Part shown: positions 19,748 through 62,167 of the stretch, piece after piece
Position numbering within the stretch: the first letter of the stretch is position 1
Layout of the letters: each line of letters starts with the position of its first letter
From: Saccoglossus kowalevskii
Lineage: Eukaryota; Hemichordata; Enteropneusta; Harrimaniidae
Reading direction: 5' to 3'
NCBI RefSeq assembly: GCF_000003605.2
Contig: NW_003152751.1
Span: 145,923 to 209,922 of the forward strand
Length of the DNA: 64,000 nt
Notes under the pieces: model-generated
Told to the model about the DNA's origin: nothing
The model's input: the letters and a program-made list of their open reading frames with translations, nothing else
Databases searched by the model: none
Translations under genes and position numbers: made by a program

Positions 19748-19844
19748 ATGGTCAACATGGGTGGGACACCGGGTATTGATCCTGGATTGCTGGGTGTACT
19801 GATTGTGATTTTGGTCTCCCTTCAACCCGGTGTATACGCGCAAG
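19748..19844 (+). CDS. Signal-peptide first exon of the giant gene
   Basis: The exon encodes MVNMGGTPGIDPG, then LLGVLIVILVSLQPGVYAQ and one base before the donor GTAAGG. It has a hydrophobic core and an A-Q cleavage region. Phase 1 fits the acceptor of module 1 at 21778, forming a Gly codon. A TATA box lies 41 bp upstream. The paralogous exon at 15039 shares the design. Confidence 0.82.
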
Positions 19845-22800
19845 GTAAGGATACGTTAATGTGACTACAAGCGTTTAGAACAATGGAAAGAAAAACTTTT
19901 ATTTTACCAGCGTAACTTCCTACACAATGCTTCAGTCTTGTTTATAGCATTACAAACAAATAAACACCCACAACATTCGTGTAGTTATATCGAATGGCAT
20001 AGCATTTTATATCTACGAAAGTAAAATACAAGTTACCTATGTCGATATAGATGTATCTTTAACTTGAACGCAGTTGTAAGTACAGCCGTTCCAACTCATC
20101 AGAACACACGAAATGTAAGTGTTGTGAATGACAACATGGTTATAACAATTATTCCACAATTCTGATCTCCATATATCGCACAACGCACACGATCTGATGT
20201 AGTATTGTATATATTGCTATAGTCTCCTTTAAGCCTTATATTTGCGACAGGCGCATGGGTGGTATGTTGAATTCCTTCACTGAATTTCCACTTTCGAATG
20301 TATTGTTTTTCTTAGTCACTATAAGTGTCAACAGATCACCAAAACTAATTACGTAAACCTTTCAATTCATTAAATTTTTCACTTAATGCCTTTGAGTAAA
20401 GTTACCTACCCGCATTTTAATACATGCAGATATACGTATAGCAAATTATCTTTTTTTTCTGTTTATTCTTGTGTAAACAGTAATTATGAAAATTATTTAT
20501 GGTTGCATAGGGAATACATATCGTTATGAATTATTCTTAATATAAATTTCTGAATTGTCTTGTCAAAATCAATATCACAATGTCGAAATGTCTTAGTGTT
20601 AATAATTATTCACACGTATGTACATACATACAAATGGCAAGGTTTGCAACACAATATGCCATTTACCATGAAGATTATACTTATGCTTCAAGGGTTCACA
20701 GAGGCGGCGGCACGACATTTTGCATGGAGGGGCGAGATCTGCTCACCATCCCTCGCGACCTTACAAGGGGGTCCGGGGCATGCTCCCCCTTACAAATTTT
20801 GAATTCTAGACTTCTAGAATTCTAGATTCTAGACCCCCTGTAACGCCATTTCCTTCATTTTGTGGGGCAAATTTTGCCGACACAAAGGGTTTCAGCTTGA
20901 ATTTAGAGGGGCGACGCGCCCTAACAATTTTCGAAGGGGCGATCGCCACCTCTGCCACCTGTGCCATCGCCACAGTTTCATGTCCGCATTTTGGGTTTGA
21001 TGAAATGCGCCTTAGCTACAAATGGCCTCCGAGATCTCCTAATATAGAATTTTATTCTATCCTCTCATCGCATTCACTGCTCCAACTATCTTAGTAACAT
21101 ATTCTCGGGAGCGAAGGTACGTCCCAGAACGTATGTTGCCCGTCTATGTTGTTACGTCACGCACCAATGTACCATGTATTTCCATGGGCTCTGCGCAAGC
21201 TGCTTTGGTACACAGGTCGAAGAGCCGGTGAAAATAGCCAAAGTCGAGAAAACAGTACAAACTCAACTATGAGACAATCCTAAACAACCAAATGTATATA
21301 AATTGCACATGTAAGGGTAATGTTGTTACCGTGCTCAGGGGATTCTCAACAACTGGTCGGAAGCACATTTTATTTAGAGCTTCTACCGTTGTTCACCGGC
21401 TACCAGGCGGGTAAATGCCCGGATGTCAACCCGAGAATACCAATGGACCAATGGGCGTGATGACAGGGGAGAATGTAACTATTTGCAGGGCAAGAACAAG
21501 TCACGCGACTCTTTTGCTCTCGGCGAGGTTTCGACGGCCATTTGCGTCGAATGTATATTCCACTCGTCAATATTTATTTATTTATTTATTTATTTATTTG
21601 TTGCTACCCTTTTAAAGCAGGGGCTCACTTTTACAGGAGCTGCAAAATTAAAGATACATTTCATAAAATAAGTACAAGAAATACTGTTATAGATCAAGAA
21701 AAATATCGACGAATTAAGCGACAATGACACAAAAATGTTGATAGTCCAAGACTACATTTTATTTCATTTGTTACCAGGATGTAGCGATGGTACGTTTGGC
21801 AAAAAGATGCTGGACATTGACAACACTAAGTCCGACTTCAGTTACGTGACGATGCCGGAATCCATTCCGGATATGACGGAGTTCACCATGTGTTTCTGGG
21901 TAAGAAGTAGTGACGCCATAACCAGCAGATACCTGATGACATACAGAAGCAGTAATATCAACTCTGGTAGCATATATTTGTATAATCCAAACAACGTTCA
22001 ACTGTATGTGAATAACGGCGCCGCCTCTGCAAGTGGGATGGTTGTCAGCTATGGTGTATGGCATCACTTGTGTATCACGTGGGACTCAGCCGATAGTGGG
22101 CGATACCATTACTACAAAGATGGTAGAATGAGGTACACGTCGTATAATCTAAAGAACAGCCAGACTATCCTCGGAGGTGGTACGATGATCTTCGGACAGT
22201 GGCAAGCATCAATTGGAGGTGGCTTCTCGAAGAGTTACTCTTTTAATGCCGAAATGTCCGCTTTCAACATATGGAATGAGAGAATGGATGTTGAAGCCAT
22301 TCAGGTAATTAACATAATATGTTTTCCCATAATGCATTTCGGTGTGGTATACACTCACCCCGACTTTAAATGACCTAGCATTTTTTGGTTCATAGGGCAC
22401 TAATCACCCGTACTCGGTACTGACATCGATTTATTTACTTACGTATCGCCATAATAATACCAAAACATGATGCAATTAATACATATAAAGTGTGATTTGT
22501 CATAAATTATAATTTGGCACATTGTGATGCTTTACAGTATATGCCGAGACGTTTTCTCCTTGTTGGTTTCCACTTCCCATTAATCAGCATATTGTTTTGG
22601 CGTAAGACTCCATGAAAAGAACACACCAATTTTTGTGTGATTTAAAAGTGAAATGACAAATATTATCAAATACGAAATAAATGAATAAATAAATATTAAG
22701 CATGTCCACAAAATGTTCTGCCCTTGTTATTCCTGAATCACGTGAAAAATCACCATGCCTAAATATTCTGGGAATGCTTGTGCCGAAAGCCCCTCACGAT

Positions 22801-25800
22801 TCTCTGGTTTTGAATGTGAAATTAAATTGTGGGCATAATGATGATCTAAACGGGCTTATAAAAATCGCGCCCTCTAGCGACGAACTTGTGAACAGTGTTC
22901 CTTACATCATTATTGACGTCATAGAAACGCCCCTGCCACAGAGGGCGCAACTTATAAGAACGGTGCTTTAGAAGTGTATTTCACTAGTATACTAAAGAGG
23001 TGTTAACTGTTCTTTTTCTTAATAGGCTATGGCTGATAATCCGTGTGAAGCAAACTGCGGCAATGCGGTATCATGGGCATCCCTAAGCTCTAGTGACTTA
23101 GCTTCAGTAACAGTAGAAGATTTTGATATCCGATGTGGTAAGTATAATAAAAGTTGCCAAATCTGGTCAGTTAACTACCAACATTAACAATTGTCAGATT
23201 ACAATAGACTTTCAGTCGTAGCGTTTGACAGTCTGTACATGAATGAGAACATGGCGTTATACAGTCGGTATATGAATAAAAACGTGGTGTTTTACAATCG
23301 GTATATGAATTTAACTATAGCAATTTACCATATGCATCATAATTTAGGGGAACACGCGTGGAACAATAGATCACATTGCCTAGAACGCACTATTCTGAAA
23401 AAAAAGCCATTATTTGTTTCCGGTGTCATGATGTAATATAAAGTATTCTACTGCTTTTCCCAGAACCAGAGAAGCCAACGTGTGCCCGAGGTGATTTCAA
23501 AGACAAGACATGGGAACTAGATAGTTCTGCTGAGTTTACTTACGCTGAATTGGAAACTGAATTCCGTGACATGTGGGCGTTTACAGCTTGTTGGTGGATG
23601 AGAACGAATGACGTTGGCAATTACCGTGCTGTTATGAGTTACTTTGCTGAGGGTGACAATCCAGGTAGCATTATCCTGGAAACCCCACAGAACCTCAGAG
23701 CTAGTATCAAAAACTCGTGGTCTTCAAGCTCTGGTATATCCGTAACATACGGACTGTGGCACCATGTTTGTCTGGCTTGGACATCAGAAGGTGGCGTTCT
23801 CAACATCTTTAAAGATGGCAGCAAAGCCTTTACGCAGAGTAACTACAGAACGAATCTTCTTCTGAGAGGTGGTGGAAAGCTGATCATTGGCCAACGTCAA
23901 GGAAGTATTGGAGGTGGTTTCAACAGAGCCTATTCTTATCTTGGAGATATCTCAGAGTTCAACATGTGGGATTCTTTGATAGAATCCAATGACATTAAGG
24001 TAACTAACTCATTTGATACACTATCAAGAGTTTAATCAGTTACATTCCTAGTTTTCAAGTTAAAATCAACATAAAACAAAGAGAGAGACTGGAGTCTATA
24101 TGAATTACATCAAACATACTAATTTGAATACAGTGTTTTCCAGGTGATACTCATGGCGGTATTCAAAGCTTTAAACAAATAAAACAAGTAAATAATTAAC
24201 TTGAGAAATTACAGATTACATTTACTTCGATTTCCTACAGCACATGCTCCAATTACGATTTTATGGGAATAGAAAGCTTAAGACATTTACTATTTGTATT
24301 TTTTCATTGTCCAGGGATATTCTGAAAACCGTGGCTGTGAAAATGGCTGTGGGAATCTTGTATCATGGCATGGAATTGCAGAGTCTGCTCTTGAGGAAGT
24401 TAAAGTAGTGGATGCTGAAGCAACGTGTGGTAAGCTAACCTACATTAGAAAACAATCGATTTGCTTGTTGCAGATTGAATCAGATTAGGATAGGTGCAGG
24501 TTTTTCAATTGCCATGTTTTATATTTTGCAGAGAACCGCGTAACAGAGTGTGATGCTGGAGAGTTTCAACGCAAAGTGTTTGATATGGACAACAGCGATG
24601 ACTTTGCTTATGCCCAGTCCTTTCAAACTATGCCCGATATGAATGAATTCACCATGTGTTTCTGGGTAAGAAGTCATGACGCCTCAACCAGTAGATATCT
24701 GATGACATACAGAAGCAGTAATATCAACTCTGGTAGCATATATTTGTATAATCCGAACAACGTTCAACTGTATGTGAATAACGGCGCCGCCTCTGCAAGT
24801 GGGATGGTTGTCAGCTATGGTGTATGGCATCACTTGTGTATCACGTGGGACTCAGCCGATAGTGGGCGATACCATTATTACAAAGACGGTAGAATGAGGT
24901 ACACTTCATATAATCTAAAGAACAGTCAGACTATTCTCGGCGATGGTACGCTTATCCTTGGCACATGGCAAGCTTCAATTGGAGGAGGGTTCTCAAAAAG
25001 TTACTCATTCAATGCAGAAATGACAAAATTCAATATCTGGAGTGAAAAATGGAGCAGTGATGCTATTCAGGTGGGTCTGTTGAAGCTTGTTTGCATTGTA
25101 ACTTCTTATGACTGTATATGATGTATGAAGACCTGCGACATACATATATGTATTTGTAATATGTCTATTTGAAATAATCTATTAGTTACAGGTTTAAAAC
25201 GTGTATTTACTTTTATTAGGCATTGGCAGAGAATGATTGTGATTTACAGTGTGGTGATGCTATTTCTTGGTCACACTTCCGATCTACTGATATATCTTCT
25301 GCAGTTGTTGTTAAGAATTCAGACATGGAATGTGGTAGGTGTATCTATGACACTGTGGGGGCGCTGTTAACTTCACCCCATTTTGCATGGTGCATGGTTT
25401 GATGTGGTAGGTAGTGTTTCTTCCCGCAGTGGTGAGGCCATGATTGTTAGTTTTAATTTCCGGTTTTATGACTGCATATACAGATTATTATTTTTTAATG
25501 AATGATGTATCATGCTTCATAGGTTCATCTCTTTTAAAACAGCCACATATTATTTTCCTTAGTTTGCTCATGCAATCATTTTTCAGTGGTTACTAGAATA
25601 ATCATTAAACAACAGTTTAAACATTCTTCAAGGAAAATTTGTTATTTGAGATTTTTGGATTGATGTTTTACCATGTGAAAACAATATTGACATGATACTA
25701 TCACATTCTTAGCTGGGCCATGATATTTATAAACTGTCAGTTAGCTGAATTGTGTTGTAACCAATGCAAATTAAGTAAATATTAACATAGTAATTTATAT

Positions 25801-28800
25801 GATCTTTTCAGAACCCGAAGAACCAGTTTGTTCGGATGGAGATTTCAAAGACAAAGCTTGGAAAATGGATAGCTCTTCAGAGTATAGCTATGCTGAGTTG
25901 CAAACCAAATTCCGTGACATGTGGGCGTTTACAGCTTGTTGGTGGATGAGAACGAATGACGTTGGAAATTACCGTGCTGTTATGAGTTACTTTGCTGAGG
26001 GTGACAATCCAGGTAGCATTATCCTGGAAACCCCACAGAACCTCAGAGCTAGTATCAAAAACTCGTGGTCTTCAAGCTCTGGTATATCCGTAACATACGG
26101 ACTGTGGCACCATGTTTGTCTGGCTTGGACATCAGAAGGTGGCGTTCTCAACATCTTTAAAGATGGGAGTAAAGCCTTCACACAGAGTAACTATAGAACG
26201 AATCTTCTTCTGAGAGGTGGTGGAAAGCTGATCATTGGCCAACGTCAAGGAAGTATTGGAGGTGGTTTCAACAGAGCCTATTCTTATCTTGGAGATGTTT
26301 TGGAATTCAACATGTGGAGTGACGTCTTACCCATTACTGATATACAGGTAAGGACACATGTTCGCAAAGTGTTCTGATACAGACATATAAGAATATATAT
26401 TTGATCGTACATTATTTCAATATCATTGTGAATAAGGATTTGATATTTTTGAGTTTTGTCTTATATTGATTGTTTTATTTTAGGGATTTGCTCAAAATCG
26501 TGGATGTGATAATGGATGTGGCGACCTCGTTAGCTGGCACGGAATTTCAGAATCTTCTCTTGTTGAAGCTGAAGTTGTTGATGCAGAATCAATTTGCGGT
26601 ATGGTATATGTTAATTATATGACTATGGATTGGTTAGCTTTAACAGCTAACTTGATTGCAGTGGCTGTGACACTCTGAATGTGATATACATATGACATAT
26701 TTATCTCAGACTACAATGTACCAACTTCCTATGTACCTCCCAATTTGTCAACAGAGGACAGAGTAACCGAATGTGGTTCTGGTGAATATGAACGTACTGT
26801 AATGGAAATGGACAACAGTGATGACTTTGCATATGCTCAATCCTACCAAAGCATAAAAGAAATGAGTGAATTCACCATGTGTTTCTGGGTTCGAAGCCAC
26901 GACACAACGACTAGTAGATATCTGATGACATACAGAAGCAGTAATATCAACTCTGGAAGCATCTATTTATATAATCCGAACAACGTACAGTTATATGTGA
27001 ATAACGGAGCTGCAACTGCTAGTGGTACAGCTGTGAACTATGGTGTTTGGCATCATATGTGCTTCACATGGGATTCGGCGGACAGTGGTCGTTACAAATA
27101 CTTCAAAGATGGTGTTATGAGATACACTTCTTATAACTTAAAAAACAATCAAGTTATTCTTGGAGGTGGCAGTCTTATTCTTGGTCAGTGGCAAGCTTCA
27201 GTTGGTGGAGGATTTTCAAAGAGTTACTCGTTTAACTGTGAGATGACTAAATTCAACATCTGGAGTGAAAAACTTGGTGCTGAAGATATACAGGTATGTA
27301 TATTTCTTTTTCCTTTTAGTGCAAGTGAACAATGGTGGTGTAATTGATAATTAAATTACGATTAATTGTATATATAAACTTGTTATGAATATATATACAT
27401 ACAATGTCAATTAATTAAGTTCTGAAAATAATGAATATTATTTTGTTTTGTTGTTCGCAGGAGATGGCGATTGGAGGTTGTGATAATAACTGTGGTGATG
27501 TAGTATCATGGTCTTACTTCCGTTCCACTGACATACCTGACTCAGTTAAAATGAAAGATTCGAATATCAAATGTGGTAAGCTAAATTTGTGTGTTTACAA
27601 GAAAGTCGGTTGAAAACTGGACCTAAAACGATCGCATTTTAGTTAAAATATTACGCCAAAAGGCTCAAATTTTGCTGAAATAAGCGACAATCTTAACATA
27701 TGGAGTAAAAATATTCGGCTCGGCCAACATTTCACTCGTAAGTAGATTGCTTTTAGCAGAATACTTAGATTACATTACATAGGATGAATAGAATAATATA
27801 AATACACAATATTCAAACTTATTGTTCCAGAACCTGATGAACCAGTGTGCTCAGGCGGTGCATATGAAGAAAAAAGCATCACATTTGACAGCACATCTGA
27901 ATATTCATATGCTATTATGAAGAAGGAAATACGCGATTTGTGGGAATTCACAGCGTGTTGGTGGATGAGAACAGATGATACCACCAGTACATATCATACT
28001 ATGATGAGTTATTTTGCACAAGGTGAGTCTGATTGTTATGGTAAAGTGGTTAGATTATTTATTTCCAATCAGGGAGACTGTGGGTGCGTGGGTGTGATGT
28101 ACAAATTCACCTTTAATATCGTACATCAGTTGGACTTCAATAAATACGTACACCAACGTTTATCAACCGACATAGAGTTATGTAGGGTACTGTCTGTAAT
28201 GAGTTACCCGTTTGATATGCATCCTTGATTGGTGGCAATAATAACATTATTTGTTCCTCTAATAGGTGATAGCGTCAGCAGCATTCTTGTAGAAAACCCG
28301 TATAATCTGAGAGCTGTTATTAAAAACCAGTGGGGAAGCTCAACAACAGTAGCAGTCAACTATGGGATGTGGCACCACGTGTGTCTTTCATGGGCTGGGG
28401 AAGACGGTATATATAACGTTTACAGAGATGGCGGTGTTGCATATACACAAAGCGGTTACTCAAAGGACAAAATTATCCGTGGTGGTGGCACATTGGTTCT
28501 TGGGCAAAGACAAGGAAGTATCGGAGGTGGATTCAGTAAGACATATTCCTATGCTGGAGAGATGTCAGATTTTAACATGTGGAATACCTGTTTAGTCTCA
28601 GATGATATAAAGGTATGATATTTTAAAGGAGGCTTTTTTGGACTTTAGTCTCAGGTCATGTAATTTACTCTTAAAACTTGGTAAAATAAGTAAATTGTGT
28701 CATGTTTATCATGCCCTCCCTACAGCAAGTCCTCTGTTTGAATACACAGTATAAGATTGTATCACCTCGTTGTCAAGTTACAATCAATGTGCTTTATTGC

Positions 28801-49800: not shown

Positions 49801-50563
49801 TCAATCGATCAATCGATCAATACATATTATGTCTAAAAGTTTTAATGATTCATGTATTTTACCACAGAGCCACGAATCGCCAAGTGCAGTGGTGGTGAAT
49901 ATGACAACAAAGTATGGAGCCTAGATAGCACTTCAGTTTGGAGCTATGGTTACTCCTATCAACCCGTTCCAGACATGGATGCCTTCACAGCCTGTTGGTG
50001 GATGAGAACAACTGATACAAGTAGTAGTCGTTACATATTCTCCTATATGACTTCCAGCGTTGCCAGTGGATCCATCAAGGTTTATAACACTGCTAATATG
50101 CAGATGTTGGTTAACAACCAGTGGGGAACGGCTAGTTCCACAAAAACCAACAATGGTAGATGGCATCATTACTGTGTTCTGTGGAAGGCCAATGGCGGGA
50201 CATACAGATACTTCAAAAACTCAAATTTGGTTTACCTGAACATTAATCTCAAAACCGATCAGAAGATACTTGGTGGCGGAGCACTTATTGTTGGTCAGCT
50301 TCAAGGAAATGTAGGAGGCGGTCTGAATAAGGCAAACTCATATATTGGGGATATAAGCCAATTCAACTTGTGGAGCCATGGACTAGAATCTGACGACATT
50401 ATGAACGTTGCTATCACTGGTTGTCACACAGGATGTGGTAATGTCATTTGGTGGTCATATTTCCGCTCCACCGATCTTGCATCTGTGAATACCGACAAGG
50501 ATTTTGATGTTCAATGTGGTAGGTTTATGGTTCTTCTTTCATTCTATGGGTCATATACATATA

Positions 50564-53600: not shown

Positions 53601-56600
53601 AATGTCGAAAACGGAATCGCTGTGTTTATTGTCTATTGTCTTTATTGTCTTTCCGTTTCGTTTTTATGCAATAAATATAATGGCAGCAAATGCACTGTTA
53701 TAGTATACAACACAATTTCTCGCCAACCCATAATGGGCTCAAGCACACAAATGTCACTCAAAGTGTTCTGTCGTTCACTATAGGTTAGCGAAAGTATTAC
53801 AGTAAACTATGTGTAGATGCTTATACCCAACAATTTGCAAATAACAGTTTATACCGTCTTTCCTGTAGCGTTTGTCATTATTGGGATGCGAGAATGGATG
53901 TGGTGACATCATATCATGGGCATTATTTACATCTGAAGATATTACAGAAGTAGAAGTTAATGAATCTGAGATAGAATGCCGTATGTTTGTCTTTACTGTG
54001 ATTTATTATTAGTAAATGTCAATTAGAAAAATTCGAAAAATTACTTGTTTTAAGGATCAAATACATGCATTATGGGCAATCGTGACCAGCAAGGTATATG
54101 TATAACTTTTTCTTCACAGGTTATGAGCCGAGTTGTACTGGAGGCACATACGAAAACAGCACTATGGCTTTTGATAGTACTAAAGATTGGAGCTATGCCA
54201 TGGTAACAAAGAAAATACCAGACCTTGAAGAATTCAGCGTCTGTTATTGGATGAGAACTGTTGATAGATCGAACTGGGCTGGAACAATGTTTTCTTACTT
54301 TTCCCCCGGTTCCACTTGGTATGGTAGTATTGCTGTTGAATATACCCATAACATGAGAATGTGGATCAAAACCAGCGTTGGATCATGGAGTAATATAGAA
54401 ACAAATTATGGTTTGTGGCATCACATTTGTGTTACATGGAAGTCAAATGGAGGAGTATATAGAGTAAGTTTCATTTTGGTACATTTTGTAGATCGCGGAA
54501 AGTTGACACAATTGTTTTTTTGTTAGTTACATTTCAACTATTTCACTAATCATATTTTCTGATATTAACAGATGTACAAAGACGGAAACTTGAGATATCA
54601 AGGTGTTAATCTTAGGAGTGGTGAGACGATCCTCGGCAATGGTGTTGTGGTTCTCGGACAACATCAAGGCAAATATGGTGGTGGATTCCACAAATACTAT
54701 TCATACAAAGGCGAGATGACTTCCTTCAACATGTGGAGTGAAGCAATAGAAAGCGAAGAAATAAAAGTAAGTGCGATATTACACATAGTCAGTGCTGGTG
54801 TACTGGTTTCTACTATTGTTGGAGTTCATTTTCCAAGGTTTATTGTTGTAAACTTATTATTAAATATTAAAAATGCATTTGAATGTGGTTGTATTTTTCA
54901 CCAATGACATGATGTTGTTTCATATTAACTGTTTTTTATTTACTCCTCAGAAACTTGCAACAACTCCATGTGACAGGGGCTGTGGCGATATCATCAATTG
55001 GTCGTATTTGACACCGGCGGATCTTGAGTCAGTGGAATTAGCTGAAACAGAAATGGCTTGCAGTAAGTTATCATTTGTTTGTTGAAACTAATATATATCA
55101 TTTAATGTATTTAATATTCAATGTTGCACCTGGCAATACTACATTTTTCTTCTTAGGCCCAGAAGTACCTCGCTGCTTTGGTGGCGATTACAGACGAAAA
55201 ACGTGGTCATTTGACAGCACAACAGTAAATTCATTTGTCACAGTGGATAAAACCATCCCCGATCTGAGTGAGTTCACTATGTGTTTCTGGATGAGAACAA
55301 ATGACCGATCTAACTTCGCCAGAATGATCGTGAGTTATTTCACTTATGGCGATAGCGTGGGCAGTATTGCCCTGGAATATGTACACAATATGCGTATGTG
55401 GGTCAGTAATCAAGCTGGTACATTCTCTGGTATGGAGTTGAATTATGGTCTGTGGCATCACGTGTTTGTCGCATGGACATCGACTGATGGTGTGTACAAA
55501 TACTACAAAGATGGAGACATGGAACTGAGTGGCATAAACTTAACCAAAGATCGACTTATACGCGGTGGTGGTACTATGGTCATTGGTCAAAGACTTGCGA
55601 ATACAAATGGTCAGTTCAGTGGAAGCTACTATGCCTATCAAGGAGAACTCTCAGATTTCAATTTATGGAAAGAAAAATTAAGAAGCAGTGAGATTGAGGT
55701 AGGAACCTAAACTATTTAGTCTGTGTGAAAAAATATATTAGCATGACCAGTATGATACCATTCATGCGTATAGGAAACTACAAAATAATTATTTTCCTTC
55801 AAATTAGGCAATTGCTGAAAATGGCTGTTTAAAAGCATGTGGCAATCTAGTATGGTGGCCATCCTTTAAATCTGAACAGTTAACAGAAGTTGGTGTCAGC
55901 GATTCTGACAGGCAATGTCGTAAGTTATTACTTTTTCTTATAAATACTTGCTCGATGGGAGTGTATAATGAGAACACTTGGAATACAGATTCCTTTTTTT
56001 TATTCACAGCAAGTATACCGAGATGTTCAGGTGGAAAATATGCTAATAGCCTCTGGAGATTTGATAACACATATGACTGGAGCTATGCAACAGTACCAAA
56101 AGAACTTCCTGATTTAGATGAATTCACAGTCTGTTGGTGGCAGAAAATGAATGAAACACCAACCAGCAACTATTTTTGGAGCACCATCATGGGCTACTTT
56201 GCCATTGGAGATTATTCCTATGGCAGTATTGACGTCATCAATCCCAACAACCTTGGTGTATATATTAAGAATCAATGGAGTGGATACACCAATGTTAAGG
56301 TCAATGATGGAAGATGGCACTATTTATGTATGACGTGGGAATCAGATGGTGGTATCTTCAAATTATATGACCGTGGACAAAGAATGTACTCTGCTTCAAA
56401 TATTGCATCTGGGCAAACAATCAGAGGAGGAGGATCGTTAGTGATTGGCCAGCTACAAAGTGGAGTTGGTACAGGTTTCTTAAGACCCTATGCATTTAAT
56501 GGCAAGATTATGTATTTCAACATATGGACACGAGCACTTGACGCAAATGAGATTAAGGTAAAAGACAAGTTTGGCTAATCAGAAATAATCATTGAATGTT

Positions 56601-59600
56601 GTGTATCATTTATCACTTTAGTTGTGAAAGAGAAATATTGTTGTAAGTGGGTTATTGTATTTACAACTAATTTTTTTTTGTATTAGGAGGCTGGTACTAC
56701 TCGATCCTGTGATCCTGGGTGTGGTGATCTGTTTTCGTGGCATGAATTCACACCTTTTGATATTGAAGGGGTAACAGCTACTAAAATCCAATGTGGTAAG
56801 TGTGTACATGGATAAGGTAACTTATAGCAATGTGGACAGTGTTTGTATATAAATAATACACAAACAAAGCTCCAATTTTTCTCTCTCACTGAATAGTACT
56901 ATTGAAATTGAGTCATTCTGAATTATAGGTTGCTGTTGTCATTGCACGGATGTTTTCTAAAAGTACATATAAACACAATATTCGCTGCAAAGATCCACAA
57001 CATGATCGTTTAACTTGCACACGGCGTCAGCTTGTAAAGTCAGAGCTGGAAACATGGCAGATTGTCTCCTTCACGTGACTATCACTCGTCTAATCAGCGT
57101 TTAATAATGTTTTGATGCTCACATTTCAGATAAAACAACAGATGGCGGAATCGAAATTATCGAGAAGGAAGATGAGATGACAACCATGGCTCCCGCTCAA
57201 ACAACTGTTGTTATAGAACCAACAACCACCATTGTAGAACCAACAACTGTCGCCGCCGAACCAACAACTGTTGCCGTCGAACCAACTACTGTCGCTGCCG
57301 AACAAACAACTGTTGCTGTCGAACCAACTACTGTCGCTGCCGAACCAACAACTGTCGCTGGCAAACCATCTACAGTTGCTGTTGATGAACCAACGACTGC
57401 TGAACCTGAATCAAAAAAGACAAGTAAACCCAAGGAACAAACAACTGAAGTTCACAGCACAGCCACATCTCAAGAACACACAGAAGGTGGAACAAATGCT
57501 CATATACAAATCGCAACTACAGCAAACACAACTGCCAAGAAAACGACAGTATCAGAAAAAAATATGACAACGGAAGAGAATCAGAATAAAAGAACAACAG
57601 AAGCTACTGGTGAAGTTACTACTGCTTCAGAAACAACTACTCTGTCATTGGAATTTACAACCAAACAAGGTGTGATTTTGTGCGGTATCAGTATACATTT
57701 ACCTAACAGTATATAAGTATCGTGCAGTATATTAATATATTGTAATTTAGATTACTCTTATTCCCGAAATACTTCACAATGTTTCTGTTGAAGTACATGA
57801 AAATGAAGTACATGAAAACTAAACATTAATAAACTTGTTTTTGTTTATTTTAGCTTGTCCAGTGCCAGATGATCTTCCAAATGCAGCAGAAGGTAAATTG
57901 GCAACTCAGAGTTCTAGAAAGGGGGGTTCTAAGGCCGACCGAGCAGTTGATGGCAACACGAACAGCGATGCACTGGCGGGAAAATCATGTACCCAGACTA
58001 CAGTTGAAAACAGACCATGGTGGAAGGTTGATCTTGGTAAATCTCAGAATGTCTACAAAGTAACAATAACAAATAGGCAAGATTGTTGTGGTAAGTAGTA
58101 CTGCTATGTTCTACTGATATCCATTTGTTTATTAATCAGCATGATAAAGAGAATGACCTTTTAAGAATTATATAAGCTTTGCCATTTTTTTTATCTGACA
58201 TTTAACTGAGATTTTAATACAATATTCATGAAAAAGTATGTCACAATTTTGACTAGAAACATGATGTGTCAATTTGAATGTCATTGATAACTATCTATGC
58301 TTTTAAATTACTACACAGCTGAGGAACTCCTGAATGCGGAAGTACGTGTTGGTGATGATGATGACTTCAATAACAATGCTATGTGTGGTACCCAAATTTC
58401 TGCTGATGTTGTCAACCAAGAAACCATTGAAGTTATCTGTGCCTGTGGTGATCCATTGTCGGGTCGATATATCAGTGTACAGCTCCCAGGTATTGGATCA
58501 TTAGCCCTGTGTGAGGTGGCAGTTGGAGGTCTGCCAATGCCTACATTGGAACCGGAAGTCACAACAGAAGGTAATTATGAATCAAATAACTTTAGGACAT
58601 TCTTCACAAAATATCTCAAATGCCTCCAATAAGTTAAACAAACTATTTTTTCTGTTTTGTTTTTAGTATGCCTATTACCAGAGAATCTCGACAGTGTGGC
58701 TACTGGTAAAACAGCTGTACAAAGTTCCCAGAAAGGGGGATCAAAGGCCGGAAGAGCCGTTGATGGTAACACAGACAGCAACTTCCGTAATAAGTCTTGT
58801 TCACGAACCACACTGGAATCCGAACCCTGGTGGATGGTGGACCTTTCTGAGATTCAAGATGTTTACAAAGTTACTTTAATAAACAGACAAGACTGTTGTG
58901 GTAAGATTATTGACGATATAGTCATTCATGTAATGTTATTATACATCACATAATAGCATGAACTTTCGAGAGTATTGAAATAGTGCCTTCCCAAGACATA
59001 TCGGTAGTTTGAAAGCCAGGTTATCAGACCATTACTCCTTAGTAAGTTTCTTCGTGCAGCAGAGGAAAACATAAGTGATGTAATATCCGCCGAAGATGTT
59101 AAGGAATAATATTATTATCACATTCACAAGCCAAGTGTTTTTTTCAATGAGTTCAGATTTGTTTATCTTTTTACATGTACATGTTTTTATGCGCTGAACA
59201 CCCTATCTAGGTTAAAGTGTTGAAGATTCAGGCCGTTTCCTGTCCCACCTTCAGAATAACGAAACGTCTGTGCTAGACGTGACTATCTGTTAAAAAAATA
59301 TCCATATTAAGCGTTTTTGTGTTGCAGCATGCATGTCAAGTTTCAATTCAAATTATTTCTGATAATTTCGAGAAATGGAACTCGGTGAAAATAGTTTCGT
59401 TTTTACAGAACCGATGACATAGACACTGGATTGAATGACGTAGAATTACCACGGTATAAAAGTTGTACTTTCTGTTCAACAAAGAATAAAATGGCTTGTG
59501 CATGTGATAATATTAAACTAGACTAAACAAACTAGACACGATCCTTTCACGTTAAGAAATTCGCATGCCATTCACATGTGAAAATTATCCGCATAATTGG

Positions 59601-62167
59601 AATACAAGTGTCTATGGCACATTAACCACATAGGTATATTCTCGAACGTACCAATATACCTATATTCAAGTTTTCGATTTTTTAGATTATATATGAAATA
59701 AAGAACAGGATTTTGACATTTAGTGAATCTAACATGTTCTACTCTTTGTGTAATATCCACAGCTGACAAACTACTCAATGCAGAAGTACGAGTTGGGAAC
59801 AGTGAAAATATTATTGATAATGCGGTGTGTGGTGTTAGAGTATCTGAATCGACAACAACCAAGGAAACAATTGATATCATATGTGCATGTGGACAGCCAG
59901 TGACAGGGCGTTATGTCAGTGTCCAGCTCATTGGGGTCACAGAGGAACTTACACTGTGTGAAGTAGAAGTGTCAGCTCTACCATCTGCCGTTACCTCTGC
60001 TCCCAGTGAAGATATCACTACTTCAGACGTGGGCTTGACCACTGATGAATGTAAGTAGAGTCAGTTACCACTAAATGATTACTCAATAATCCCACTTGTT
60101 GCTTTAATATGGTCGGTTTAACATATTATGGTTCTTCGCAGCTTGTACCCAACCTGATGGTCTTGTAAACATAGCGACTAACATGATTGCAACTCAAATT
60201 TCAACCGTGAGAAAAAGTATTGCCGGTAAAGCAGTTGATGGCAACTTCGATAGCAATTTCAAGGGAAAGTCATGCACGCAGACTGAAAAATCTCTTGAAC
60301 CATGGTGGAAACTGGATCTTGGCCAAGAACGTGGAATTTATGGAGTAACCATCACTAACAGAATGGACTGTTGTTGTAAGTGTTCAATAATACACATTCG
60401 TATTTACTATTGTAGAATATAATTTTTTGTCATAAATTGTACAATCTCAAGTTTCCCGCACTGAAGCCGCTGCTGTATTGTAAAACAACTGTAGCAACAT
60501 ATGGTAAACGTAAACATACAACAAACTAACAAACCAACATGTCTTCTATATTATAGCATCTCGTCTGAAAGAAGCTGAGATCAGAATTGGAAACAGCGAG
60601 AACATGGAAGAGAATACACAGTGTGGAATTCGAAGGGTCAGCGGGAAAATGGCCAAACGAGAACAAATTCACATCATCTGCAACAGCTGTCAGCCATTAA
60701 TTGGACGATATGTCAGCATTCGATTGAAGCGAGACAAAGAAATGATTCTTACCTTATGTGAAGTGGAGGTCCTGGCAATGGGAGAAGCTGGACCAACTGC
60801 AATGGCTACCGAGCCCTGGTCTACACTAGCCAGAATGGATACCACTCCAGTATTGGAAACAACACCAATAACAACTGAACCACGTAAGCCAACGAAATAT
60901 TTATTTTACTTAATTAAATCCTGAATTCTTATTTGATTTTTAACTATCATGATTATTATTAATAAATTATTTGATGTCTTCTTCAGCTTGCGTATTGCCA
61001 CCAGTGGTTGAGGTGGCTTCGGGGCTGGTGCAGACTAGTCAGAGCTCAGTCAGAAGGGGTGCTGTGGCTATCAGAGCTGTAGACGGAAACAAAGATGGCA
61101 ACTTCAAGACTGGAAGATCATGTACAATGACAAAAAAAGAGTATGAGCCATGGTGGATGATTGATTTAGAGGAATCACGTGACATTCACATGATCACTAT
61201 TAGCAACAGAGAAGATTGCTGCTGTATGTTGTTTTCCTTCCACAATAATGAAAAAAAAACACTTTATTTCGTGAAACGTAAGAAGTGTAAAAATGCGAAA
61301 AACGACAGAATGTGTGTTTGCTTCCGTCGATATATAATGTAATTTATTATTATTATTTGTTCCATCAGACTTCCGCTTGAAAGCCGCTGAGATAAGAGTT
61401 GGAAATAGTCCCAACTTTGAGGAGAACGCCGTCTGTGGAGGTGGGCCACTGCGTGGACGAGATGCTAGGGAGCGTACCGTTAATGTCACCTGTGGTTGTG
61501 ATACACCACTCAACGGTCGATACGTCAGCATTCAACTTATAGATAGAACGCAGTTCCTGACTTTATGCGAAGTTGAAGTCTGGGCTGCTGCTCCACCTGA
61601 AGAATGCCAGCTGCCCGGTGGACTGATTGAGCTTGCCAGCGGGAATCAAGTGTCACAGAGTTCAACAAAGAGGAAGTTAGGTGCTGAAAAAGCAATTGAC
61701 GGAGACAAAAACAGCGACTATAACGCGTTGTCGTGTACCCAAACCGCTTCGGAGTTGAGTCCTTGGTGGAAGGTGGATCTTGGTGAATCTAAAGATGTTT
61801 ATCAAGTTATTATCACAAACAGAATGGATTGTTGCTGTAAGTATCACTAGAATATGTGAAATATTGCCACGTTTATTGCATTTGTTGTGCGTGATATATA
61901 TATTGATATAAAGAGAGAAATTATCTATTTGTCATTGATCTTACAGCGTGGAGACTTGACAGTGCCGAAATTCGTATTGGAGACAGCGAGAATATATCGG
62001 AAAACGCCCTCTGTGGTGAACCACTGTCAAGACAAATGGTCGACAAGGAAACTATTGCTGTAAGGTGTGGATGTGAAGCAATGAAGGGGAAATACGTCTC
62101 TATACAGTTGCAGGACATGACACAAGTGTTGACTCTATGTGAGGTGGAAATAATGGGCTTCCCATAG
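19748..62167 (+). CDS. Giant secreted pentraxin(x31)-mucin-FTP(x5) lectin, about 76 exons
   Basis: The chain runs from a signal exon (19748-19844) through 31 modules (21778-56795), a Thr-rich exon (57130-57669) and five FTP domains (57854-62167) to a TAG stop. Every junction is GT-AG, and each module has a length divisible by 3 with phase-1 borders. The total is 23,355 bases, about 7,784 aa, taking 39 unseen bases in the gap. Each module is a pentraxin/LamG-type jelly roll with WHHxCxTWxS (pentraxin signature H-x-C-x-[ST]-W-x-[ST]), YKDG, LIIGQ and FNMW, followed by a tail with the pattern C-x3-CG-x4-W and a final Cys. Pentraxins normally are single-domain, calcium-dependent pattern-recognition proteins. 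The Xenopus pentraxin fusion protein joins one FTP to one pentraxin, in the opposite order. There is no membrane anchor, so the product should be secreted. A split into two genes near 57 kb is not excluded, but no promoter, signal peptide or stop supports one. Confidence 0.85.
20690..20985. repeat. GC-rich dispersed-repeat-like segment in intron 1
   Basis: The segment differs in composition from the AT-rich surroundings. It contains GGAGGGGCGAG, GGGGGTCCGGGGCATGC and two more AGGGGCGA copies, plus a self-complementary TCTAGAATTCTAGA region (about 20810-20835). The GGGGTCC..GGCATGCTCCCC pattern resembles common invertebrate interspersed repeats, but I cannot name the family. No intact coding frame is seen. 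Confidence 0.4.
21571..21600. repeat. (TATT)n microsatellite in intron 1
   Basis: About seven tandem TATT units, following a GC-richer stretch (21100-21560) in which nothing else was recognised. Confidence 0.8.
21778..23137 (+). CDS. Pentraxin module 1 (class alpha)
   Basis: Exons 21778-22304 and 23026-23137. It begins GCSDGTFGKK, shorter by four residues than its siblings because it follows the signal exon directly. It has MCFWVRS, HHLCITWDS (full pentraxin signature), YYKDG, FGQWQASIGGGF and FNIW. Tail: CEANCGNAVSW with final IRC. About 179 bp of its centre (21933-22111) match module 3 with one difference. Confidence 0.9.
22855..22958. repeat. Imperfect inverted repeat in the module-1 intron
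   Basis: Arms 22855-22875 (CTTATAAAAATCGCGCCCTCT) and 22940-22958 (complement of CTTATAAGTTGCGCCCTCT) flank 64 bp. The 15-mer AGTTGCGCCCTCTGT in the second arm also occurs at 4323-4337 in the opposite orientation. It may be a small MITE. Confidence 0.45.
23464..24429 (+). CDS. Pentraxin module 2 (class beta)
   Basis: Exons 23464-23999 and 24315-24429. Class-beta hallmarks are TACWWMRTNDV, GDNPGSIILETP and AFTQSNYRTN. The signature is HHVCLAWTS, with Ala in place of Ser/Thr. It has GQRQGSIGGGF and FNMW. Tail: CENGCGNLVSW. The centre (about 23562-23950) is nearly identical in DNA to module 4. Confidence 0.92.
24532..25334 (+). CDS. Pentraxin module 3 (class alpha)
   Basis: Exons 24532-25070 and 25220-25334. 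It has TECDAGEF, MCFWVRSHD, RSSNINSGSIY, HHLCITWDS and GTWQASIGGGF. Tail: CDLQCGDAISW with MEC. The N-terminal and C-terminal thirds match other alpha modules, while the centre matches module 1 almost perfectly, so it is a mosaic. Confidence 0.92.
25812..26598 (+). CDS. Pentraxin module 4 (class beta)
   Basis: Exons 25812-26347 and 26484-26598. It has EPVCSDGDF, TACWWMRTNDV, HHVCLAWTS, GQRQGSIGGGF and LEFNMW. Tail: CDNGCGDLVSW with SIC. The ends differ from module 2 (VLEFNMW here, ISEFNMW there) while the roughly 390-bp centre differs at only a handful of bases. Confidence 0.92.
26755..27575 (+). CDS. Pentraxin module 5 (class alpha), extra Cys
   Basis: Exons 26755-27293 and 27461-27575. It has TECGSGEYE, MCFWVRSHD, HHMCFTWDS, GQWQASVGGGF and then FNCEMTKFNIW, where the siblings have FNAEM. 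It therefore carries a seventh cysteine beyond the usual six. Tail: CDNNCGDVVSW. It opens the first alpha-gamma-delta-beta tetramer (modules 5-8). Confidence 0.92.
27831..29954 (+). CDS. Pentraxin module 6 (class gamma, split domain exon)
   Basis: Exons 27831-28022, 28266-28612 and 29840-29954. The domain is interrupted by a phase-1 intron after SYFAQ, at the position shared by modules 12 and 16. It has ENPYNLRA, HHVCLSWAG (last signature residue Gly), YRDGG, GQRQGSIGGGF and FNMW. Tail: CENGCGNLISW. The intron before the tail exon is unusually long, 1.2 kb. Confidence 0.9.
28613..29839 (+). other. Long intron of module 6, no features recognised
   Basis: 1,227 bp of AT-rich intron with a short (AAT)n tract near 29538. 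No coding or element signature was found on either strand. Confidence 0.5.
30574..31331 (+). CDS. Pentraxin module 7 (class delta)
   Basis: Exons 30574-31106 and 31220-31331. Delta hallmarks are SYASVMQEIPEM, CMWIKTTQST, YRTSNINAGSMY, WFHTCMTWTS and GQWQASIGGQF. The domain exon is 533 bp, six bases shorter than alpha exons. Tail: CGYMCGDVISW with VQC. It is nearly identical to modules 13 and 17. Confidence 0.92.
31463..32219 (+). CDS. Pentraxin module 8 (class beta), extra Cys
   Basis: Exons 31463-31998 and 32105-32219. It has TSCWWMRTNDV, NLRACVKNSW (Cys where modules 2, 4 and 10 have Ser), HHVCLTWSS (full signature), GQRQGSIGGGF and FNMW. Tail: CENGCGTLVSW. The extra Cys is shared with module 14, which occupies the same place in the next tetramer. 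Confidence 0.92.
32437..33341 (+). CDS. Pentraxin module 9 (class alpha)
   Basis: Exons 32437-32975 and 33227-33341. It has STCEGGEFE, MCFWVRSRD, HHLCFTWDS, GTWQASIGGGF and FNIW. Tail: CGSLCGDIVSW with IKC. Followed by a beta module, it forms an extra alpha-beta dimer (9-10) between tetramers. Confidence 0.92.
33544..34519 (+). CDS. Pentraxin module 10 (class beta)
   Basis: Exons 33544-34085 (542 bp, two codons longer near IPDHDLWEF) and 34405-34519. It has TACWWMRTNDV, HHVCFAWTS (Ala in signature), GQRQGSIGGGF and FNMW. Tail: CENGCGDLVSW with AIC. Its DLWEF start is gamma-like while the rest is beta, which suggests recombination between classes. Confidence 0.92.
34638..35842 (+). CDS. Pentraxin module 11 (class alpha)
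   Basis: Exons 34638-35176 and 35728-35842. It has TDCEGGEFD, MCFWVRSRD, SSNINTGSIYVYNP, HHLCFTWDS and GTWQASIGGGF. Tail: CDANCGDIISW. It begins the second tetramer (11-14) and is nearly identical in DNA to module 15. Confidence 0.92.
36040..37222 (+). CDS. Pentraxin module 12 (class gamma, split exon), tail exon in assembly gap
   Basis: Exons 36040-36231 and 36359-36705, plus a tail exon visible only from 37147 to 37222 (NVISWHDF with SEC). It has the same internal phase-1 intron after SYFAQ as module 6, HHVCLSWAG, YRDGG and GQRQGSIGG. The tail's first 39 bases, including two cysteines if it is normal, lie in the run of N. Frame and length agree with a standard 115-bp tail. Confidence 0.88.
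36864..37146. other. Assembly gap (283 N)
   Basis: Unsequenced bases fall at the intron 3' end and tail-exon start of module 12. Near-identical repeats around it may have hindered assembly, and the true gap size is unknown. Whole modules could be collapsed here. Confidence 0.95.
37337..38120 (+). CDS. Pentraxin module 13 (class delta)
   Basis: Exons 37337-37869 and 38009-38120. It has LECGKGDFDDK, SYASVMQEIPEM, CMWIKTTQST, WFHTCMTWTS and GQWQASIGGQF. Tail: CGYTCGDVISW with VQC. Long stretches are identical in DNA to modules 7 and 17. Confidence 0.92.
38302..39060 (+). CDS. Pentraxin module 14 (class beta), extra Cys
   Basis: Exons 38302-38837 and 38946-39060. It has TACFWMKTND, NLRACIQNTW (extra Cys as in module 8), HHVCVTWSS, GQRQGSIGGGF and FNMW. 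Tail: CKNGCGNLLPW, with Pro replacing the usual Ser before Trp. Confidence 0.92.
39162..39938 (+). CDS. Pentraxin module 15 (class alpha)
   Basis: Exons 39162-39700 and 39824-39938. It has TKCGEGKFE, MCFWVRSRD, SSNINTGSIYVYNP, HHLCFTWDS and GTWQASIGGGF. Tail: CDVTCGDEISW. It opens the third tetramer (15-18) and is the sister of module 11. Confidence 0.92.
40109..41236 (+). CDS. Pentraxin module 16 (class gamma, split domain exon)
   Basis: Exons 40109-40300, 40668-41014 and 41122-41236. It shares the phase-1 internal intron position with modules 6 and 12. It has HHVCLSWSE (Glu at the last signature position), YRDGG and GQKQGSLGGGF. Tail: CDNGCGNIILW, with Leu before Trp. It is more diverged from 6 and 12 than they are from each other. 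Confidence 0.9.
41373..42237 (+). CDS. Pentraxin module 17 (class delta)
   Basis: Exons 41373-41905 and 42126-42237. It has TECGKGEFDDK, SYASVMQEIQEM, WFHTCMTWTS and GQWQASIGGQF. Tail: CGYSCGNVISW. The middle of the domain exon is almost identical in DNA to module 7, including KDARLRYTNTG. Confidence 0.92.
42572..43338 (+). CDS. Pentraxin module 18 (class beta, diverged)
   Basis: Exons 42572-43107 and 43224-43338. It has TACWWMRTSTTT, GDSYGSIIVESPHNLRA, HHVCITWSS, then GQRQRIMGGNF where siblings have GQRQGSIGGGF, and FNMW. Tail: CDNGCGNLVSW. It ends the third tetramer. Confidence 0.9.
43694..44459 (+). CDS. Pentraxin module 19 (class alpha, diverged)
   Basis: Exons 43694-44232 and 44345-44459. 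It has TECNGGDLK, MCFWVRSED, HHMCFTWDS, YYKDG, then GQRQGLVGGSF, a beta-like loop in an alpha module. Tail: CDSNCGDVISW. Confidence 0.9.
44776..45517 (+). CDS. Pentraxin module 20 (gamma-like, uninterrupted exon)
   Basis: Exons 44776-45314 and 45403-45517. It has MCFWARTDDLS, SYYAYGDSVGSIVIENP, NHVCTTWKS, YKNG (Asn for Asp) and GQKQGSMGGGF. Tail: CDNGCGELISW. It matches gamma modules in sequence but lacks their internal intron, so that intron was gained (or this one lost) after the lineages split. Confidence 0.9.
45696..46490 (+). CDS. Pentraxin module 21 (delta/alpha-like)
   Basis: Exons 45696-46237 and 46379-46490. It has SDCEGGQFDGK, TACWWSRTTDG, HHMCVTWSS, YFKDT (final Gly lost), then GQVQNQNGIVF and FNLWC, the last adding a cysteine. 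Tail: CQPDCGDIIAW. Confidence 0.9.
46847..47599 (+). CDS. Pentraxin module 22
   Basis: Exons 46847-47391 (545 bp) and 47488-47599. It has STCSGGAFDDK, TSCWWMRTSD, then MQLCVNNQCGTASS with two extra cysteines six residues apart, which could form an added disulfide. It also has HHICVTWSS, YFKDG, GQQQNSVGGGF and FNFW. Tail: CEKGCGDVIAW. Confidence 0.9.
47784..48543 (+). CDS. Pentraxin module 23
   Basis: Exons 47784-48319 and 48432-48543. It has KICSKGHYNGK, MCFWTKTYST, HHICITWDS (full signature), YFKDA, GQYQTTVGGGF and FNMW. Tail: CQQTCGDLISW. From here to module 31 the modules are strongly diverged from each other. Confidence 0.9.
48696..49699 (+). CDS. Pentraxin module 24
   Basis: Exons 48696-49240 (545 bp) and 49579-49699 (121 bp, the longest tail here). 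It has ITCSDGQFD, SVCWWMKTTGT, HHVCLTWTR (Arg at the last signature position), YKDG, GQRQGSKGGGF and FNMW. Tail: CANGCGDLISW with LGTC, two residues longer than siblings. Confidence 0.9.
49868..50518 (+). CDS. Pentraxin module 25, single fused exon
   Basis: One 651-bp exon encodes both domain and tail. SDDI is followed directly by MNVAITGCHTGCGNV, at the point where every other module has an intron. It has TACWWMRTTD, HHYCVLWKA (signature degraded), YFKNS in place of YKDG, GQLQGNVGGGL and FNLW. This is a precise intron loss. Confidence 0.9.
50566..50630. repeat. (AT)n microsatellite
   Basis: About 32 AT units in the 220-bp intron between modules 25 and 26, starting about 47 bp after the donor at 50519. 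It may be polymorphic. Confidence 0.92.
50739..51549 (+). CDS. Pentraxin module 26
   Basis: Exons 50739-51283 and 51435-51549. It has QTCQNGEFSDK, MCWWVRTDD, HHVCFSWNS, YYKDG and GQDQASIGQQAAF. It is the only module with an acidic residue (Asp) at the position matching CRP Glu138. Tail: CMDGCGDIVPW with ITCE. Confidence 0.9.
51695..52438 (+). CDS. Pentraxin module 27
   Basis: Exons 51695-52230 and 52327-52438. It has EECNKGEFV, MCWWMRTTS, HHACITWDN, YYKDG, GNDQKGVGGVRF and FNVW. Tail: CNPECGDVVNW with IPC. Confidence 0.9.
52674..53980 (+). CDS. Pentraxin module 28
   Basis: Exons 52674-53209 and 53869-53980, with a 659-bp intron between them. It has PACYGGEFDDK, TICYWVQTDD, VHLCTSWDS, YFLDGS, GNRRNSKGGSF (both Gln of the GQxQ loop replaced) and FNMW. 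Tail: CENGCGDIISW. Confidence 0.9.
54120..55062 (+). CDS. Pentraxin module 29, uniquely split domain exon
   Basis: Exons 54120-54463, 54572-54766 and 54951-55062. A phase-0 intron of 108 bp interrupts the domain just before MYKDG, a site unlike the gamma-class intron and seen in no other module. It has SVCYWMRTVD, HHICVTWKS, GQHQGKYGGGF and FNMW. Tail: CDRGCGDIINW. Confidence 0.88.
55157..55919 (+). CDS. Pentraxin module 30, signature Cys replaced by Phe
   Basis: Exons 55157-55698 and 55808-55919. It has PRCFGGDY, TMCFWMRTND, then HHVFVAWTS: the cysteine of the pentraxin intradomain disulfide is Phe (TTT), leaving the partner Cys unpaired. YYKDG, GQRLANTNGQF and FNLW follow. Tail: CLKACGNLVWW. 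Frame and splice sites are intact. Confidence 0.9.
56010..56795 (+). CDS. Pentraxin module 31 (last)
   Basis: Exons 56010-56557 (548 bp, the longest single domain exon) and 56687-56795 (109 bp, the shortest tail). It has PRCSGGKY, TVCWWQKMNE, then WHYLCMTWES with Tyr for the signature His, LYDRG in place of YKDG, GQLQSGVGTGF and FNIW. Tail: CDPGCGDLFSW with IQC. Confidence 0.9.
57130..57669 (+). CDS. Thr-rich mucin-like spacer exon
   Basis: One 540-bp phase-1 exon of 180 codons lies between the last pentraxin module and the first FTP domain. Its core is a tandem heptad-like repeat (PTTVAAE, PTTVAVE), repeated about eight times at 57220-57400, then a Thr/Ser/Glu/Lys-rich stretch. Such sequence is usually extended and heavily O-glycosylated. 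It has no cysteine until just past the splice site. The repeated DNA could vary in length between alleles. Confidence 0.88.
57854..58570 (+). CDS. FTP domain 1 of the giant gene
   Basis: Exons 57854-58090 and 58319-58570. It has CPVPDD, RAVDGN, KSCTQT, PWWKVDL and NRQDCC, then AEELLNAEVRVGDD, VICACGDP, GRYISVQL and LALCEVAV. The last basic residue of the R-x-D-x4-[RK] element is Glu here. Confidence 0.9.
58667..60050 (+). CDS. FTP domain 2 of the giant gene
   Basis: Exons 58667-58900 and 59763-60050, with an 862-bp intron that holds nothing recognisable. It has CLLPENL, RAVDGN, KSCSRT, PWWMVDL and NRQDCC, then ADKLLNAEVRVGNS (R-x-D-x4-K present), GRYVSVQL and LTLCEVEV. It ends in a Ser/Thr-rich linker of about 20 residues. 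Confidence 0.9.
60142..60883 (+). CDS. FTP domain 3 of the giant gene
   Basis: Exons 60142-60375 and 60557-60883 (327 bp). It has CTQPDGL, KAVDGN, KSCTQT, PWWKLDL and NRMDCC, then SSRLKEAEIRIGNS (R-x-D-x4-R present), IICNSCQP, GRYVSIRL and LTLCEVEV. The extended tail is Thr/Pro-rich (ETTPITTEP), a second short mucin-like linker. Confidence 0.9.
60987..61600 (+). CDS. FTP domain 4 of the giant gene
   Basis: Exon 60987-61223 and the first half of exon 61369-61836. It has CVLPPVV, RAVDGN, RSCTMT, PWWMIDL and NREDCC, then YFRLKAAEIRVGNS, VTCGCDTP, GRYVSIQL and LTLCEVEV. It is closest in sequence to domain 5 of the left minus-strand gene. Confidence 0.9.
61601..62167 (+). CDS. FTP domain 5 and C-terminus of the giant gene
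   Basis: The second part of exon 61369-61836 and the terminal exon 61947-62167. No intron separates domains 4 and 5: EVEVWAA runs straight into CQLPGG. It has KAIDGD, LSCTQT, PWWKVDL and NRMDCC, then SWRLDSAEIRIGDS, GKYVSIQL and LTLCEVEI, ending MGFP-stop (TAG 62165-62167). There is no transmembrane or GPI-like tail. Confidence 0.9.

Follow-up and report, generated by a model that had tools for sequence, protein, structure and literature searches.

Can pentraxin domains, which normally occur as separate single-domain subunits of ring-forming, calcium-dependent immune proteins, be chained in large number on one polypeptide, and what would such a chain do? The question is raised by a 64,000-nucleotide stretch of DNA (the window) from the acorn worm Saccoglossus kowalevskii. 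A first-pass annotation had described there a giant secreted lectin with 31 pentraxin-like modules, a mucin spacer and five FTP domains, joined in a continuous chain of phase-1 exons.

The span 19748–62167 on the plus strand was found to be one protein-coding gene. Profiles built from the window itself served to locate the large and small exons of the modules and the two halves of each FTP, and these were chained into a spliced model, with some boundaries set by hand. The model has 75 exons plus one exon cut by an N gap, and runs from the ATG at 19748 to the stop at 62165–62167. All 74 donors are GT and all 74 acceptors are AG, there is no conflict of phase or length, and the translation of ~7,769 residues contains its sole stop at the very end. 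From N to C terminus the layout is a signal peptide, 31 pentraxin modules, a Thr-rich stalk and five FTP (F-type lectin) domains. The secreted chain has a predicted mass of ~0.86 MDa, an acidic pI of 4.8 and many candidate disulfides. Exon 1 (19748–19844), with the start codon and the predicted signal peptide MVNMGGTPGIDPGLLGVLIVILVSLQPGVYA-Q, was the sole exon with an ATG, a hydrophobic stretch and a phase-1 donor in a plus-strand scan of 19600–62200 (it holds two in-frame ATGs), which agrees with the annotated secretion of the protein. A TATA-box-like TATAAAA is present at 19707–19713 (+), ~40 bases before the ATG, and an AATAAA polyadenylation-like signal follows at 62382–62387 (+), with more at 62529 and 62793. 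The continuous phase-1 chain of the annotation held for the module boundaries, which alone are phase 1, whereas the intron inside a pentraxin module is phase 0. One extra intron is found in modules 6 (phase 1), 12, 16 and 29, and module 25 is without its intron. The N gap at 36864–37146 interrupts the small exon of module 12, whose 5' boundary is assumed in the model, not observed.

The same gene is already present in public databases as the prediction S. kowalevskii LOC100373294 (7,757 aa), whose record name states no function. When the C-terminal 4,569 residues of the model were used as query in a protein search, it was the top match, with 100% identity and coverage listed. The two differ at four places: LOC100373294 starts at the next Met (3 aa shorter than the 7,769-aa model), has 15 additional aa at the module 5 acceptor, is missing the gap exon (26 aa) and has 2 additional aa at module 16. 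With our own profiles, 31 pentraxin and five FTP domains were detected in it. LOC100373294 is an automated model and provides no independent check on the assembly, because it may rest on the same one.

The identity of the modules was established by a six-frame search of the whole genome with the Pentaxin profile (PF00354), in which 31 of 31 modules scored above the 25-bit cut-off. The genome-wide total was 96 matches, with 31 inside the gene's span in the window, one per module, and 65 outside; the weakest score among the modules was 39.1 bits (module 29, which has a split large exon). The annotated count of 31 was thereby reproduced, and the HMM check for an unrelated fold that the annotation had proposed assigned the modules to Pentaxin and the FTP domains to PF22633. 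Its description of a two-part module was not upheld: the small exon supplies the C-terminal portion of one pentraxin domain that the large exon begins, not a separate part. An AlphaFold2 model of module 25 has the pentraxin fold, and the best sequence and fold matches of this module were neuronal pentraxins 1 and 2; its low-confidence stretches (186–190, 195–204 and 206–216) lie in the small-exon part, where the alignment had one row. The core disulfide of pentraxins, which we take to be Cys36–Cys97 in CRP numbering, has its first Cys in 31/31 modules and its second in 30/31, module 30 having Phe.

Neuronal pentraxins 1 and 2 have one pentraxin domain per chain, and so does a classical pentraxin; here, 31 domains are carried on one chain. 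Successive modules are joined by linkers of 4–6 residues between cysteines, mostly six. One explanation would be a polyprotein precursor, cut into single pentraxins which then form rings, as would suit complete domains of a kind that is generally known from separate subunits. We consider this extremely unlikely, given that no dibasic or furin-like site was found in the 30 inter-module linkers, an argument that applies to dibasic/furin-type proteases only. N-glycosylation sequons numbered 10 in the array against 55 for the reversed pattern, with none in the ten A modules (defined below). This scarcity is not special to the array, because 42 other pentraxin domains of the genome show the same (17 against 91 reversed, ~five times rarer).

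The calcium site was compared with that of the same 42 control domains, which were drawn from 28 loci of this genome (one domain or more probably counted twice at a locus edge). Site columns were read against neuronal pentraxin 2 as the reference, in CRP numbering, and the calcium ligands of a classical pentraxin are presumably positions 61, 138, 140, 147 and 150 in that numbering. Asn61 was present in 1/31 modules vs 31/42 control domains, and an acidic residue at 138 in 2/31 (Asp in modules 26 and 27) vs 33/42. Acidic residues at 140 and 147 were found in none of the 31 modules vs 37/42 and 34/42 control domains, respectively, and Gln150 in none vs 31/42. Position 60 is uninformative, because Asp60, absent from all 31 modules, occurs in only 6/42 controls. 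Judged by these columns, the modules are without most calcium ligands of a classical pentraxin. In contrast to the modules, NPTX2 retains Glu, Gln and Asp at 138–140. Gln139 is retained in 29/31 modules, and Tyr occupies position 150 in 26/31.

Downstream of the array, the stalk exon (57130–57669, +, phase 1–1) encodes 180 aa with 49 Thr, EPTTVA repeats and a tandem repeat of 21/42 bases. It is Thr/Ser-rich and repetitive, mucin-like as the annotation had it, and could carry O-glycans. The first-exon halves of all five FTP domains scored above the PF22633 cut-off, at ~57.9, 58.8, 60.2, 61.1 and 61.7 kb (+). FTP domain 1 (57854–58570) consists of exons 57854–58090 and 58319–58570, domain 2 (58667–60050) of exons 58667–58900 and 59763–60050, and domain 3 (60142–60883) of exons 60142–60375 and 60557–60883. 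Domain 4 (60987–61602) is encoded by exon 60987–61223 and the first part of exon 61369–61836, and domain 5 (61603–62167) by the rest of that exon and exon 61947–62167 with the stop TAG. The exon sequence 61371–61835 matches MsaFBP32 (7.2e-37).

As given in PMC5712786, the basic triad for fucose is His ... R-x-D-x4-(R/K), with a spacing of 24, and the cation motif of F-type lectins is h2DGx. When the FTPs of the gene are aligned with MsaFBP32 and a second lectin (1k12), all five have a different residue in place of the fucose-site His (Q, R, Q, M and Q). R-x-D is retained in 5/5 and, by eye, the last R/K in 4/5; the segment AVDGN/AIDGD of the cation motif, for which cation binding is predicted, was likewise seen by eye in 5/5. 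On these residues, the FTPs of this gene do not have the basic triad of a fucose-binding F-type lectin. The term lectin in the annotation is therefore not borne out by the residues themselves, with ligands 140, 147 and 150 gone in 31/31 modules and the fucose-site His in 5/5 FTPs. A motif pattern, which misses some FTPs, matched 20 FTPs; His was replaced in the five of this gene and in 13 others (on this contig and contig C996), and retained in two FTPs on contig C352.

The bridge from 56795 to 57854 had been doubted in the annotation, and the locus might instead hold two genes, a pentraxin array to ~56.8 kb and an FTP gene from ~57.1 kb, or the transcript might have an alternative end in the stalk. 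The last small exon could indeed read through to a stop, the stalk donor 57669 towards FTP1 is weak (rank 6 of 74 from the weakest), and the intron between stalk and FTP1 contains an AATAAA at 57828. Acceptor 57130 ranks 14 of 74 counted from the weakest. Against a separation, donor 56795 and acceptor 57854 rank 69 and 56 of 74 on the same count, and the first-exon scan revealed no later signal-peptide-like first exon after 19844 on the plus strand up to 62200. The parts are also joined in LOC100373294 and in the Glandiceps protein described below, and a paralogue on C996 has the same order. We thus give two separate genes very little credence, and regard the doubted bridge as joined, with the mucin-like spacer and the five FTP domains in one gene. 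An FTP-less isoform with an alternative end at 57828 is possible, because of the weak donor 57669 and the AATAAA in the next intron; that AATAAA may be there by chance, since 19 of the 74 introns contain one.

The annotation had suggested looking for the same architecture in related genomes, and a protein of this kind was found in another acorn worm. Among the six matches of the long-query protein search at E 1e-5 or better, one besides LOC100373294 has several pentraxins and FTPs, the protein LOC144453094 (2,627 aa) of Glandiceps talaboti, a member of a different enteropneust family, which is uncharacterized in NCBI. Like the Saccoglossus gene it has pentraxins, a Thr-rich linker and FTPs in that order, with the same A and B types. 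It differs in having nine pentraxin modules rather than 31, a number that is probably a lower bound because the model begins inside a module, and four FTPs rather than five. Glu was found at 138 in 1/9 Glandiceps modules (Gt7) and an acidic residue at 140 or 147 in 0/9, and the fucose-site His is missing in 4/4 Glandiceps FTPs (two by pattern, two by eye). The remaining four matches had one pentraxin match (three proteins) or two weak ones (one protein). SVEP1/polydom, found in the same search, is likewise a giant multidomain protein with a pentraxin; each of its two entries has one pentraxin match, and PF22633 and PF00754 are not among the listed domains. A protein search with a single module scored 0 of 52 candidates at E 1e-3, which would reflect its word and length limits, because a separate profile search (13 animal-type pentraxins found) and the long query succeeded. 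NCBIfam gave no match for three proteins. Judged from the sequences, this is one gene with a conserved layout, present in databases already as 'uncharacterized'.

Comparison of the modules with each other revealed an alternation. In modules 1–20, identity was 55–66% at even distances and 36–38% at odd ones (lags 1–12), odd modules being of type A and even modules of type B. The modules, all on the plus strand, were delimited by PF00354 profile and splice model, together with site columns for modules 1–11, 13–24, 26 and 27. Type A comprises modules 1 (21778–23137), 3 (24532–25334), 5 (26755–27575), 9 (32437–33341), 11 (34638–35842), 15 (39162–39938) and 19 (43694–44459), and, as type A'', modules 7 (30574–31331), 13 (37337–38120) and 17 (41373–42237). 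Type B comprises modules 2 (23464–24429), 4 (25812–26598), 8 (31463–32219), 10 (33544–34519), 14 (38302–39060), 18 (42572–43338) and 20 (44776–45517), and, as type B', modules 6 (27831–29954), 12 (36040–37222, the 5' end of its small exon in the N gap) and 16 (40115–41236). The even/odd pattern is absent in modules 21–31. Diverged modules are 21 (45696–46490), 22 (46847–47599), 23 (47784–48543), 24 (48696–49699), 26 (50739–51549) and 27 (51695–52438), and module 25 (49868–50518; splice model and AlphaFold2 model) has its whole domain in a single exon. The array ends with modules 28 (52674–53980), 29 (54120–55062), 30 (55157–55919) and 31 (56010–56795), which were placed by tree as well as by profile and splice model. 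Among modules 1–20 and Glandiceps modules 1–5, position 138 is Trp in 12/13 A modules (the exception, module 19, has Arg) and Arg or Lys in 12/12 B modules. Position 138 is a pointer, not proof, since the two types are separated at least equally cleanly by five further columns, each at least 90% fixed for one residue in A and another in B.

In a joint tree, modules 28–31 pair one-to-one with Glandiceps modules 6–9, with a bootstrap of 100 each. Modules 1–19 form four groups (6/12/16; 7/13/17; 2/4/8/10/14/18; and 1/3/5/9/11/15/19), each with its own Glandiceps members, and modules 20–27 have no clear Glandiceps partner. This pairing and grouping indicates an old C-terminal end that has stayed fixed and an N-terminal part that multiplied in the Saccoglossus line; gene conversion between copies could add to the pattern. 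Of 16 chosen related module pairs, 13 had a defined dN/dS, of 0.05–0.23. The modules have the look of coding sequence under constraint rather than of repeats in decay. The other three pairs had saturated dS and four more had dS >2; among these chosen pairs, every defined dS was at least ~0.35. These figures also bear on a possible assembly artefact, in which near-identical repeats would have inflated or collapsed the number of modules. There is one N gap inside the array, and the closest modules are ~91% identical in protein. Most modules are, on the other side, well diverged (mean protein identity 42%, with the dS values above), and the succession of a B' and an A'' module across the gap is the one seen in modules 6–7 and 16–17. 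An artefact of this kind is in our judgement very unlikely.

Tandem pentraxin chains recur in this genome, as indicated by contigs C996 and C350. On C996, the order of the window gene recurs on a small scale: three pentraxins of one exon each are followed by a Thr/Ala-rich exon and a single FTP pair, with phase-1 boundaries as read, a stop after the FTP and a signal-peptide candidate upstream. On C350 (216135–263011, minus strand; loci L010–L014), there are 17 tandem single-exon pentraxin modules, of which 15 end in a phase-1 donor and the 3rd and 17th in a stop. From these stops, three modules would form one chain and the other 14 would continue without a stop; the reading is based on the 3' ends of the modules, and the 14-module run is a candidate single gene. 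Most C350 modules carry a GQEQDS-type calcium motif, and short Thr/Pro-rich open stretches lie between some module groups. The window gene is the longest tandem pentraxin chain seen in this genome.

Further FTP sequences surround the gene. At 515–9895 on the minus strand of the window, five first and four second FTP exon halves represent one or more further tandem FTP genes, and all five first halves are without the fucose-site His. Downstream, an FTP cluster continues on the minus strand at 63452–63808 (L026 and L027) and reaches ~222.7 kb of contig C4257, ~12.7 kb past the window, with one more FTP match at 232.4 kb of that contig. Giant open frames of 5,200, 2,750 and 2,412 aa beside FTP matches were considered as giant mucin exons and rejected, being mostly N runs (4,745 of 7,000 and 5,098 of 5,400 bases in two regions, which cover two of the three frames in part). 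Elsewhere in the genome, the hemichordate mitochondrial code is visible in the sequence of the mitochondrial contig C4830 (17,037 bases; L029 and L030), with ATA at Ile sites, AAA at Lys sites, a tRNA-Lys TTT, AGA at a Ser site of nad1 and AGG absent in six genes. The sites were assigned by residues judged to be conserved, and the reading was compared with PMC3121625 and PMC2697986; the code pointed to Saccoglossus, in agreement with the protein match to LOC100373294.

What is known already are the domain families, the pentraxin–FTP fusion as such and the protein as an uncharacterized database entry. According to PMC5712786, Xenopus PXN1-XENLA and Xla-PXN-FBPL combine F-type lectin domain(s) and a pentraxin in one polypeptide, as does the Saccoglossus gene. 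The same source places the F-type domain of PXN1 N-terminal to the pentraxin, whereas in Saccoglossus the 31 pentraxins come first, and it also mentions Xenopus chimeras in which a pentraxin domain is accompanied by five F-type domains in tandem. The annotation's view of the Xenopus fusion was accordingly right as to the opposite order in PXN1 and too narrow in allowing one domain of each. Oyster bindin shares with the Saccoglossus gene a tandem array, of one to five F-type domains; it is a sperm acrosome protein, and the passage on it in PMC5712786 mentions no pentraxin. The diversity of FTPs in hemichordates has been noted in the same text. No description of tandem pentraxin arrays of this layout was found in the literature searched, mostly without subscription papers. 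The architecture, which the annotation had called undescribed, can be called so in respect of that literature, but not of the databases or the genome, given the UniRef/nr prediction, the Glandiceps homologue and the smaller chains elsewhere in the genome. Newly noted here are the alternation of modules 1–20 in two types, the fixed C-terminal pairing and the N-terminal multiplication in Saccoglossus.

As to function, we propose a multivalent secreted rod for recognition or cross-linking, calcium-independent and encoded by a single gene, a proposal for which we see belief and doubt evenly balanced. The array would be a stiff, acidic rod, stabilised by disulfides and 100 nm or longer. At its former calcium sites it would now make contacts that need no calcium, with two kinds of site in alternation, Trp in A and Arg/Lys in B. 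Its high valency would come from the concatenation of domains, whether this replaces ring formation or adds to it. Between the rod and the FTP cluster the stalk would act as a spacer, and the cluster would anchor the rod to glycans in mucus, matrix or the cell coat, probably to a glycan other than the canonical fucose. The most likely site of action would be the mucus or surface coat of the burrowing animal, a guess from the stalk, the FTP cluster and the life style. On balance, the old ligand face would still serve for contact, now without calcium and in two kinds that alternate, because the residues that took the place of the lost calcium ligands are conserved within each class and across two families. 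It may also be that, with both canonical ligand sites lost, the protein no longer binds at all and no new site has arisen.

The main rival is a passive structural backbone, in which the array is a spacer or gel-forming scaffold of mucus, cuticle or egg coat and the folds are stable acidic bricks with no specific ligand. Such a backbone would suit the loss of both canonical ligand sites, the strongly acidic protein, the short linkers of fixed length and the Thr-rich stalk. It is harder to reconcile with the retention of Gln139 (29/31), the presence of Tyr at 150 (26/31) and the conservation of the A and B residues at 138 in both species, which is more than a passive brick would seem to require, and with FTPs that all keep the cation-motif segment and R-x-D (5/5 each). 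We regard it as possible, if on the whole unlikely. A more specific form of the recognition rod would be that, before at least two acorn-worm families diverged, the calcium and ligand site was rebuilt as calcium-independent Trp sites in A and Arg/Lys sites in B, and that duplication of even blocks of modules followed. The result would be ~10 A–B composite sites in fixed register with an F-type-lectin anchor, the N-terminal arm varying in length and the C-terminal foot fixed. This detailed scenario is speculative, and we put it forward as rather improbable. If true, the protein would be a pentraxin receptor that works without calcium, built from concatenated modules of two types and anchored by F-type lectin domains.

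A conserved gene with up to 31 chained pentraxins minus the calcium ligands represents a second route to multivalency from this fold, and chained pentraxins make the value of ring assembly testable. The gene is also a clear example of an array that grows at one end while the other stays fixed. For the biology of acorn worms, it provides a concrete candidate glycoprotein of the mucus or surface coat.
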